This document shows positions 3,297-8,401 of a stretch of DNA of 64,000 nucleotides, piece after piece. The position numbers and the translations under genes are program-made. The notes under the pieces are model-generated. The model saw only the letters and a program-made list of their open reading frames with translations. It was not told the origin of the DNA and did no database searches. The DNA lies in contig CALRGJ010000001.1 in assembly GCA_943357285.1 (NCBI GenBank), forward strand, positions 124,001 through 188,000. The letters are read 5' to 3'. This stretch comes from Candidatus Peribacteria bacterium. GTDB lineage: Bacteria; Patescibacteriota; Gracilibacteria; UBA1369; LOWO2-01-FULL-3. Every line of letters starts with the position of its first letter. Position 1 is the stretch's first letter.

Positions 3297-3878
3297 TTAT
3301 TTGCAGATTTCAATTAGTCCACCATTTGCTCCTGGAAGCGCTCCCTTGATAAGAACAATGTTTTTATCTTTATCAATTGAAACGATTTTTTTCTTCTCAG
3401 TTTGACGATCTAAACCTTGGTGACCAGGATATTTCTTACCCTTTTGTACTCTACCTGGCTTAGCACGACAACCGGATGAACCTGGTTCTCTATGATGTAA
3501 TGAACCGTGACCTCCTGGACCTCCATGGAATCCCCAACGGCGGATTACACCTTGGAAACCTTTACCTTTGGATTGGCCAGTTACGGTTACTACTTCTAGT
3601 CCTTCGAGGATCTCAACCGTGATTACGTCTCCAATTTTATAGTTAGGAACGTCTGCAGCTGGGATTCTAAATTCTTTTACGAAGCTGAATTTCTGAGTCT
3701 TTGTAGGCTTTTTCAATTTGGAAAAACCTAGGACTAACGCCGGATATCCATCTTTTTCTACTGTCTTTACCTGTGTAACCTCATTTGGTTCACACTGTAC
3801 AACAGTTACTGGGATCACGCGGCCGTCATCTTGGAAGATGCGAGTCATGCCTAATTTTTTACCTAGAATACCTGACAT
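3297..3878 (-). CDS. rplC: 50S ribosomal protein L3
   Basis: L3 is an early assembly protein of the 50S subunit. The 193-residue protein starts MSGILGKKLGMTRIFQDDG and has the long rRNA-penetrating loop (GFHGGPGGHGSLHHREPGSS). It is the first gene of this transcription unit. rpsJ, normally adjacent upstream, is separated by an opposite-strand gene at 4103-5626. A strong promoter lies upstream at 3998-4026, leaving a leader of roughly 115 nt. Confidence 0.97.
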   Translation of the reverse strand: MSGILGKKLGMTRIFQDDGRVIPVTVVQCEPNEVTQVKTVEKDGYPALVLGFSKLKKPTKTQKFSFVKEFRIPAADVPNYKIGDVITVEILEGLEVVTVTGQSKGKGFQGVIRRWGFHGGPGGHGSLHHREPGSSGCRAKPGRVQKGKKYPGHQGLDRQTEKKKIVSIDKDKNIVLIKGALPGANGGLIEICK

Positions 3879-4026
3879 ATGTTTGTAGAGGTTAAACCCA
3901 CTAGGGTGTCCGGAAAAGATTTTCTTGGTAGAAACCCTTTCTGCGGGTGGGCGTTGTTTAGCCCGTTGTTAACTTGCATTAGTCAAAATGCTGTTGGAAT
4001 ATACAGAACGCTTTCCGACTAGTCAA
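3879..4026 (-). promoter_or_regulatory. Promoter and structured leader of the rplC operon
   Basis: On the minus strand a -35 TTGACT (4026-4021) and -10 TATATT (4003-3998) are separated by 17 bp, an almost consensus housekeeping promoter. The leader down to rplC contains three short hairpins, GGGC-TAAACAAC-GCCC, ACCC-GCAGAAA-GGGT and ACCC-TAGT-GGGT. In other bacteria the S10 operon leader is a feedback target of L4; a similar role here is inference. No terminator-like T-run follows these hairpins. Confidence 0.8.
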
Positions 4027-5703: not shown

Positions 5704-6024
5704 TTAGCTCTGCAACATTTTAATTTCAATCTCAACACCCGCTGGAAGACTCAAGCTTGATAGAGTTTCGATAGTGTGTGGGGTGCTTTCAGTAATATCA
5801 ATAAGACGAGCGTGAGTTCTCATTTCGAACTGTTCACGAGCGTTTTTATGTACGAATGTAGATTTTAGAACTGTGAATCTGTCGATCTTTGTAGGAAGTG
5901 GAATAGGACCAGCAACGATAGCGCCTGTTCTTACTGCGTTATCAATAATAAGTTTTGCTGTCTCGTCGATAACTTTGTGATCGAAAGACTTGATCTTGAT
6001 ACGGATTTTTTGCTTTGAAGCCAT
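5704..6024 (-). CDS. rpsJ: 30S ribosomal protein S10
   Basis: S10 is a 30S head protein that also joins NusB in antitermination complexes. The 106-residue protein starts [20 protein letters not shown] and keeps the family core [17 protein letters not shown] and [13 protein letters not shown]-type loop (here [20 protein letters not shown]). Unlike most bacteria, it is not followed by rplC: a terminator lies 22 bp after its stop and an opposite-strand gene intervenes. It therefore appears monocistronic, with its own promoter and attenuator-like leader. Confidence 0.97.
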
Positions 6025-6049: not shown

Positions 6050-6127
6050 AAAAAAACCGAGATTTTACAGCTCGGTATAAGTTTGATGTCACGCCAAGTA
6101 GGCGAGAGATACAATTCTTTGAGCTGT
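6050..6127 (-). promoter_or_regulatory. Attenuator-like switch in the rpsJ leader
   Basis: On the minus strand, ACCGAG (6076-6071) and CTCGGT (6061-6056) form a hairpin followed by seven T (6056-6050), an intrinsic terminator 26 nt before the rpsJ ATG. Its 5' arm and loop contain GAGCTGT (6073-6067), exactly complementary to ACAGCTC (6127-6121) upstream in the same leader. The two pairings are mutually exclusive, as in a terminator/antiterminator switch. The ligand is unknown; a ribosomal protein would fit by analogy with other S10 leaders. Confidence 0.65.
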
Positions 6128-6184
6128 CCCGAGTGGTTGTCCTCGAGTGATTCTCTAAAAGCAGAAAATCAATTTTGTAGTGTC

Positions 6185-6213
6185 TTTATATAGATTGATT
6201 AGTCAAATGTCAA
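6185..6213 (-). promoter_or_regulatory. rpsJ promoter
   Basis: Minus-strand -35 TTGACA (6213-6208) and -10 TATAAA (6190-6185) with 17 bp spacing. Transcription would start near 6178, giving a ~155-nt leader that includes the attenuator-like hairpins. Confidence 0.8.
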
Positions 6214-7210: not shown

Positions 7211-8401
7211 TTAAGCAATGATCTTAGAAACAACTCCGGCACCTACTGTTCTACCACCCTCACGGATAGCGAAACGTGTAGCTAGGTCTAGAGCGATAGG
7301 AGCTCCAAGAGTAACAACGAACTTGATGTTATCACCTGGCATTACCATCTCTACGTCTGCTGGTAATTCTACTGAACCAGTTACGTCAGTTGTACGAACG
7401 TAGAACTGTGGTTTGTATCCTTTGAAGAATGGAGTATGACGGCCACCTTCGTCTTTAGTTAGGATATATACCTCAGCTTCGAACTTAGTATGTGGAGTAA
7501 TTGAACCTGGTTTAGCAATAACCTGACCTCTTTCAATATCTTCTCTTTCAATACCACGTAGCAATAGACCAACGTTGTCTCCAGCTTGACCTTGGTCAAG
7601 AAGCTTACGGAACATTTCAACACCAGTAACTACTACTTTTCTTGTTGGGCGAATACCGATAATTTCAACTTCTTCATTGATCTTAACGATACCTTGGTCA
7701 ACTCTTCCTGTAGCAACAGTACCACGTCCTTTGATTGAGAATACATCCTCAACTGACATCAAGAATGGTTTGTCGAGAAGACGAACTGGATCTGGAACGT
7801 ATGAATCAAGAGTTTCCAAAAGTTCAACGATACATTTTCTAGCTGTTTCATCATCTGGGTTTTCAAGAGCTTTAAGAGCTGAACCACGGATAACTGGAGT
7901 TTTGTCTCCTGGGTATCCATTCTTTGTAAGAAGTTCACGAACTTCCATTTCTGAAAGGTCAGCGATTTCTGGATCTGCAACGTCGATTTTGTTCAAGAAT
8001 ACAACAATGAACGGAACGTTAACCTGACGAGCAAGCAAGATATGTTCACGAGTCTGTGGCATAGGACCATCAGCAGCTGAACATACTAGGATAGCAGCAT
8101 CCATCTGAGCGGCACCAGTAATCATGTTCTTAACGTAATCCGCATGTCCTGGACAATCCACGTGTGCGTAGTGACGTTTAGCTGTTGAGTATTCCTGATG
8201 TGAAGTCGCGATAGTAATACCACGTGCTTTTTCTTCAGGTGCGTTGTCGATTTGGTCGAAAGCTACAGCTTTGTTACCAGCGAAAACTTTTGATGCTACA
8301 GTTGTAATTGCAGCTGTAAGAGTTGTCTTACCGTGATCTACGTGTCCGATAGTACCCACATTGACATGGACTTTACTACGGTCAAATTGTTCTGTTGCCA
8401 T
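7211..8401 (-). CDS. tuf: Elongation factor Tu
   Basis: GTPase that delivers aminoacyl-tRNA to the ribosomal A site. The 396-residue protein has the G1 loop GHVDHGKT at residues 19-26, the DCPGHADY G3 box, the NKID G4 box and a complete beta-barrel half ending VGAGVVSKI. Length is standard. It is transcribed after fusA but has its own promoter (8470-8498) and a strong terminator, so it can be expressed alone. Confidence 0.98.

Follow-up and report, generated by a model that had tools for sequence, protein, structure and literature searches.

The window analysed here, a stretch of 64,000 nucleotides, belongs to a 1.2-Mb genome (G000; 25 contigs, 99% complete) whose closest named relatives among public contigs are mostly Candidatus Peregrinibacteria and Peribacteria assemblies. 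It carries rpsJ, the sole PF00338 gene found in that genome, on the minus strand between the rpsL-rpsG-fusA-tuf genes on one side and rplC, rplD and the genes that follow them on the other, with two plus-strand ORFs between tuf and rpsJ and a further plus-strand ORF between rpsJ and rplC (Table 1). The stop codon of rpsJ is followed by a hairpin (TACCACA...TGTGGTA) with a T-run, and rplC has a promoter of its own (TTGACT-17-TATATT). Ribosomal protein leaders normally stand at the head of multi-gene S10 operons. The rpsJ of the window appears to be a single-gene unit, since it has its own promoter, a terminator-like hairpin at its end and an opposite-strand gene ahead of rplC, and the monocistronic arrangement claimed in the original prediction is upheld on these grounds.

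The 507-amino-acid ORF between rpsJ and rplC contains acidic repeats and gives weak MopE and LRR matches below the Pfam cut-offs. As the gap between rpsJ and rplC is only 189 nt in G002, a genome of the same genus with an identical S10, this ORF looks like an insertion in the window or a loss in G002. The two plus-strand ORFs on the tuf side (142 and 120 amino acids) have no Pfam match; their first thirds both match one same stretch of the G002 locus and the two ORFs may be related to each other. No relative of the window's rpsJ was found in the viral contigs searched.

Table 1. Genes and leader elements at the rpsJ locus (positions within the window)
Feature	Position	Strand	Basis or remark
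rpsL, rpsG, fusA		minus	precede tuf
tuf	7211-8401	minus	followed by two plus-strand ORFs, then rpsJ
ORF, 120 aa	6773-7135	plus	no Pfam match
ORF, 142 aa	6314-6742	plus	no Pfam match
-35 box TTGACA of rpsJ promoter	6208..6213	minus	sequence
-10 box TATAAA	6185..6190	minus	sequence; spacer 17 nt
Hairpin P1, hexaloop GCUUUU	6148..6171	minus	9-bp covarying stem; family consensus of loop GNUNUU
Hairpin P2, CUCGAG...CUCGGG	6128..6147	minus	loop length variable among relatives
ACA directly after P2	6125..6127	minus	conserved in relatives
Antiterminator 5' strand ACAGCUC	6121..6127	minus	perfect reverse complement of the 3' strand
Variable spacer	6077..6120	minus	includes CGCC-TACTT-GGCG (6092-6104), a non-conserved hairpin
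Antiterminator 3' strand GAGCUGU	6067..6073	minus	overlaps terminator 5' arm and loop
Intrinsic terminator hairpin ACCGAG-CUGUAAAAU-CUCGGU	6056..6076	minus	arms 6076-6071 and 6061-6056
U7 run	6050..6056	minus	first base doubles as last base of terminator stem
rpsJ (ribosomal protein S10, 106 aa)	5704-6024	minus	PF00338, E 1.8e-33
ORF, 507 aa	4103-5626	plus	acidic repeats
rplC leader	3879-4026	minus	see text
rplC	3297-3878	minus	followed by rplD etc.

The span singled out in the original prediction (6050-6213) is bounded exactly by the U-run and the -35 box. Judging from the spacing of the promoter, the rpsJ transcript would start a few nucleotides ahead of P1. The hairpin with seven T residues that had been placed before the ATG is present, at a distance of 25 nt from the ATG at 6024 rather than the 26 nt first given, and it sits with its U-run between promoter and start codon, as a terminator does in an attenuator; our automatic terminator scan, with a loop limit of 8, did not list it, its loop being 9. 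The perfect complementarity described between ACAGCTC and GAGCTGT was likewise found, with 47 nt between the arms. Two smaller features fared differently: CGCC-TACTT-GGCG exists but is not conserved, relatives having other spacers, and the tandem CACTCG repeat is there as sequence but corresponds to the two arms of P2. The hairpins P1 and P2, the most conserved part of the leader, and the separate leader of rplC described below had not been noticed earlier. The whole leader folds better than its shuffles (z = -3.4; 1 of 200 as low), and P1 and P2 alone reach -17.3 kcal/mol against a shuffle mean of -7.9 (z = -3.9; 0 of 200 as low).

Conservation of these elements was examined in 89 genomes of the order, a group of tiny bacteria that are uncultured, of which 9 gave no rpsJ match and one (G039) gave fragments only and was not included, leaving 79 rpsJ loci. 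The upstream regions of the relatives' rpsJ share a common series of promoter, P1, P2, ACA, antiterminator strand, variable spacer and terminator, the last often lying 20-31 nt from the ATG and farther away in several. In an alignment of 24 core sequences, 13 of the 14 P1/P2 pairs showed compensatory changes and 94.4% of the cells were paired; none of 500 shuffles did as well, and slid controls gave 33-49%. A covariance model, R1, was built from that alignment. When 36 of 37 supplied sequences were aligned to the model, an alignment that for this reason leans towards the structure, 13 of the 14 pairs again covaried with changes on both sides (0 of 500 shuffles), slid controls over both alignments ranging from 33 to 53%. 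The P1 loop reads GNUN(U/C)U in 35 of these 36 relatives although the stems vary, its second position being variable, and the triplet after P2 is ACA in 33 and AAA in 3.

Searching the 79 loci with R1 yielded 46 matches, from which we used the 38 that scored at least 18.5 bits and lay just upstream of rpsJ, leaving out the lower-scoring ones and an opposite-strand match in L199 (18.9 bits). In another eight loci a diverged element was recognised by eye (G021, G031, G035, G047, G049, G050, G057 and G062); that of G049 was also matched by a second model, R2, and in that of G062 the sequences of P1, P2, the antiterminator and the terminator are all new. The genome-wide R1 scan of the 89 genomes placed 30 of its 31 matches upstream of rpsJ, a conserved RNA structure being thus consistently located in the 5' UTR of a ribosomal protein gene, as is characteristic of r-leaders. 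In the window's family the model matched 24 of the 27 genomes that have rpsJ. The element was not recognisable in 33 of the 79 loci, from which its control would be dispensable in the order. In one upstream region, that of G020 (L190), the promoter and the opening bases of P1 survive but the rest of the element is missing, a truncated relic of element loss.

Covariation in related leaders, which the original prediction had proposed as its check, extends from P1/P2 to the antiterminator and terminator helices. From 31 of the 38 loci we excised three segments by hand (the antiterminator strand, the terminator 5' arm plus its neighbours, and the terminator 3' arm) and permuted the partners among genomes, leaving out the near-copies G002 and G005, G014 (like G024), G038, and G009, G010 and G011, which have no terminator. 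The mean score of the antiterminator helix was 16.26 against 11.90 (sd 0.54) with permuted partners and that of the terminator helix 15.9 against 14.31, with 0 of 2000 permutations as good in each case; an automated test of the antiterminator, in which the strand was taken from the model match and the whole downstream region was scanned, gave 16.05 against 12.98 (sd 0.43; 0 of 1000) in 34 of the 38 loci, the other four having too short a region, and because the permutations keep column make-up but not relatedness none of these fractions is a strict probability. The terminator 5' arm hence co-varies with two partners. Since the two helices each covary, both exclusive folds are real, and together with the upstream P1 and P2 they make up the terminator/antiterminator switch that had been predicted. 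The ACA is kept in loci whose terminator loop lacks a UGU as its pairing partner, which suggests that the ACA has a contact of its own. Translation may instead be the target in G009, G010 and G011, whose elements end at 20-26 nt from rpsJ.

A promoter-like site (TTGACN, 15-19 nt, TATAAA-like) was found 11-19 nt before P1 in 32 of the 38 loci, the background for this pattern being 40 of 3160 random windows. Gene order differs between the two kinds of locus: in 32 of the 33 element-less loci rpsJ follows tuf by 3-174 nt, whereas in the 46 element-bearing ones tuf is at least 160 nt away in 25 and not within 1 kb in 21. This tie is partly trivial because the element needs room; the excess of loci with tuf beyond 1 kb (21/46 with the element, 1/33 without) is not. 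The separation of rpsJ from rplC is tied to the element weakly and not significantly (27 of 41 element loci and 13 of 30 element-less ones, p = 0.09; 8 loci were unreadable). In three genomes (G016, G018 and G025) a small gene lies between the leader terminator and rpsJ, the intervening genes being at L172 1220-1447, L173 3063-3398 and L174 2972-3448, and such a gene would share the rpsJ switch.

The leader of rplC consists of a promoter, GGCA...GUUAA, GGGUUU...AAUCUU, a covarying hairpin and UAACCUCUA, which ends the leader just before the rplC start and was found in 47 loci of the order; relatives' rplC leaders were seen among L186-L264. The hairpin before UAACCUCUA co-varies over the 47 loci (0 of 1000 permutations), and RNAalifold on a plain alignment of the rplC leaders gave no pairs. 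A promoter-like site precedes rplC in 26 of the 34 element-bearing loci with a readable rplC start. The rplC leader is conserved but different from that of rpsJ. The L3/L4 unit thus seems to be controlled separately, and this makes S10 the likely reader of the leader before rpsJ.

Searches outside the order returned nothing that we would regard as a convincing rpsJ element. In the large genome scans, whose stricter filters lose weak matches, R1 gave only 3 weak matches in 338 genomes of the class and R2 only 2 in 353 genomes, all taken as chance, and in a phylum sample of 379 genomes all 9 matches were order members. Among 73 other rpsJ loci, many of them from Oscillospiraceae and other Patescibacteria, no R1 match exceeded 12.5 bits. 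Two weak R1 matches were also set aside as chance, one at G000:C5:21344 that lacks P2 and one at G059:C14:19216 that is antisense to a long ORF. Rfam 15 gave no match at gathering score in the window, and the two matches obtained at E up to 5, far below gathering score, did not fall in the rpsJ leader. A literature search, mostly without full texts, found no such rpsJ leader described in this lineage, and the accessible part of PMC2864571 has nothing on rpsJ.

Placed side by side, the loci of the order have a promoter just before P1, and P1, P2, the antiterminator and the terminator are conserved by covariation, the last two being mutually exclusive. We take this to be a genuine attenuator of stand-alone rpsJ with strong covariation, which occurs in several families of a single order. 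We consider it reasonably probable that the leader of the single-gene rpsJ transcript is an autogenous transcription attenuator with S10 as its most likely ligand. P1 and P2 would be the first to fold as RNA polymerase copies the leader. At low ligand levels the terminator 5' arm would be captured by ACANCUC, the strand that follows P2, and transcription would continue into rpsJ; with free S10 in excess, the protein would bind P1, P2 and the ACA and hide the ACANCUC strand, so that the terminator would form and rpsJ would be turned off. The order of synthesis gives the direction: the terminator 3' arm is transcribed last, after the antiterminator strand and the 5' arm, so that antitermination would be the default and a protein sitting on P1, P2 and the ACA would block it. 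The identity of the ligand, the direction of the response (excess ligand leading to termination) and the contact at loop and ACA are what we infer. S10 is the probable ligand as the sole protein of the window's unit, and a near-invariant P1 loop and ACA amid varying stems are as expected of ligand contact.

Several observations weigh against the S10 attenuator. Small genes intervene between element and rpsJ in the three genomes mentioned, the association of the element with rpsJ-rplC separation falls short of significance, the U-runs of several terminators are weak (for example, GGUAAUUUAA), 33 of the 79 loci are without a recognisable element, and the P1 loop does not track the loop of 16S helix 39 (h39) genome by genome. 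S10 would also be a less usual kind of r-leader ligand, being a tertiary, protein-dependent binder of the 30S subunit (PMC10931766, accessible part).

We regard it as rather unlikely that the same attenuator answers to another ligand at P1/P2, such as L4, another ribosomal protein, a small molecule or a cellular state. The Escherichia coli S10 leader is controlled by L4 and not by S10 (PMC10931766, in part) and the ligand is frequently something other than the product of the next gene downstream (PMC7247131, in part), yet the window's unit encodes S10 only, rplC-rplD have their own promoter and a different leader, and the Rfam search of the window produced no riboswitch above threshold. A reading of the P1 loop as a variant boxA to which NusB-S10 binds, with Nus-factor action leading to readthrough or repression, looked promising from UGCUUUUAG and its likeness to boxA; NusB was found in each of the 14 genomes tested, and a putative boxA is reported upstream of rpsJ in three gammaproteobacterial genera (PMC5725501, Baniulyte et al., in part). 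We rejected it, as very improbable, on comparison with the rrn leaders of the same genomes: the core CUUUAAC occurs in 16 of 30 rrn leaders but in 0 of 38 rpsJ leaders, UGCYCUUUA, exact or with one mismatch, is likewise found in 0 of 38, the second position of the P1 loop varies, and this loop lies within a conserved hairpin whereas boxA is bound single-stranded (PMC10931766, in part). The boxA-like core, mostly followed by AU, is shared by G000:C3:49473 (L133) and 15 further rrn leaders of the order, and where its position was given it precedes 16S by about 120-160 nt. A fixed, ligand-free brake on rpsJ, made of a constitutive partial terminator and stabilising hairpins, would fit the similar predicted stability of the two folds and minimum-energy folds that show the antiterminator in some species, including the window's, and the terminator in others, but it is very unlikely because it would need neither a near-invariant loop and ACA nor a covarying antiterminator.

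If S10 reads the leader, the leader might imitate its rRNA site, as r-leaders frequently, though not always, do. Binding of uS10 reportedly stabilises helix 39 of the small-subunit head in yeast (PMC10695388, in part), a discussion of the Thermus 30S subunit mentions uS10 along with h39 (PMC6177447, in part), and head helices that depend on late proteins including uS10 are listed in PMC13246957 (accessible part). In the order h39 is short, with the loop GUUGN(A)UUUUUC (GUUGUUUUUUC in the window's genome), and it recalls the P1 loop GNUUUU, a likeness spotted by eye afterwards between two U-rich loops. The variable base does not match genome by genome, and h39 loops of the same type occur in families with and without the element. 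Local alignment of the leader with 16S and 23S found no similarity (300 of 300 and 287 of 300 shuffles, respectively, scored as well or better), a search for hairpins with the hexaloop found none in 16S and two short hits on the 23S locus, and TGNTTTT occurs once in the 1465-nt 16S, where about 0.2 would be expected by an estimate from base composition. Mimicry is hence kept only as a lead. A fuller scenario can be put forward only tentatively, namely that free S10 reads the leader, possibly through an h39-like P1 loop, and attenuates stand-alone rpsJ, and that this system originated within a single order of Patescibacteria, where rpsJ moved out of the str/S10 superoperon, rplC-rplD acquiring or keeping a separate leader.

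To our knowledge, little is known of gene regulation in Patescibacteria, and here a compact, strongly covarying attenuator comes with an evident ligand candidate. Should S10 turn out to be the sensor, this late 30S protein, more familiar as NusE, would recognise its own mRNA by means of a structured receptor and not through boxA, and an S10 operon split into two separately led units would show how ribosomal protein feedback is rebuilt after an operon breaks up. Among known systems, the rplJL leader of Bacillus subtilis, reportedly attenuated by L10(L12)4, shares transcription attenuation controlled by a ribosomal protein, with another protein and another gene. The S10-operon leader of E. coli likewise exerts ribosomal protein feedback by premature termination before rpsJ (PMC10931766, in part), but it stands before a long multi-gene operon and answers to L4, whereas the window has rpsJ alone and rplD in another unit, so that, by sequence, the two are not cotranscribed. 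In Nus-factor control through boxA (suhB, and rpsJ in some gammaproteobacteria) S10, as NusE, would also sense itself; there boxA is single-stranded and the accessible part of PMC5725501 describes no terminator/antiterminator pair, and the rpsJ leaders studied here are without the boxA core. Closest in position are the rpsJ motif (RLC-47-1) of Peptostreptococcaceae (PMC11109978, in part) and the predicted S10 r-leader of Firmicutes (PMC7247131, in part), likewise candidate protein-binding leaders upstream of rpsJ; these belong to another phylum and are set apart by the R1 scan. On this comparison, the rpsJ leader described here would be a new RNA family among ribosomal protein leaders.
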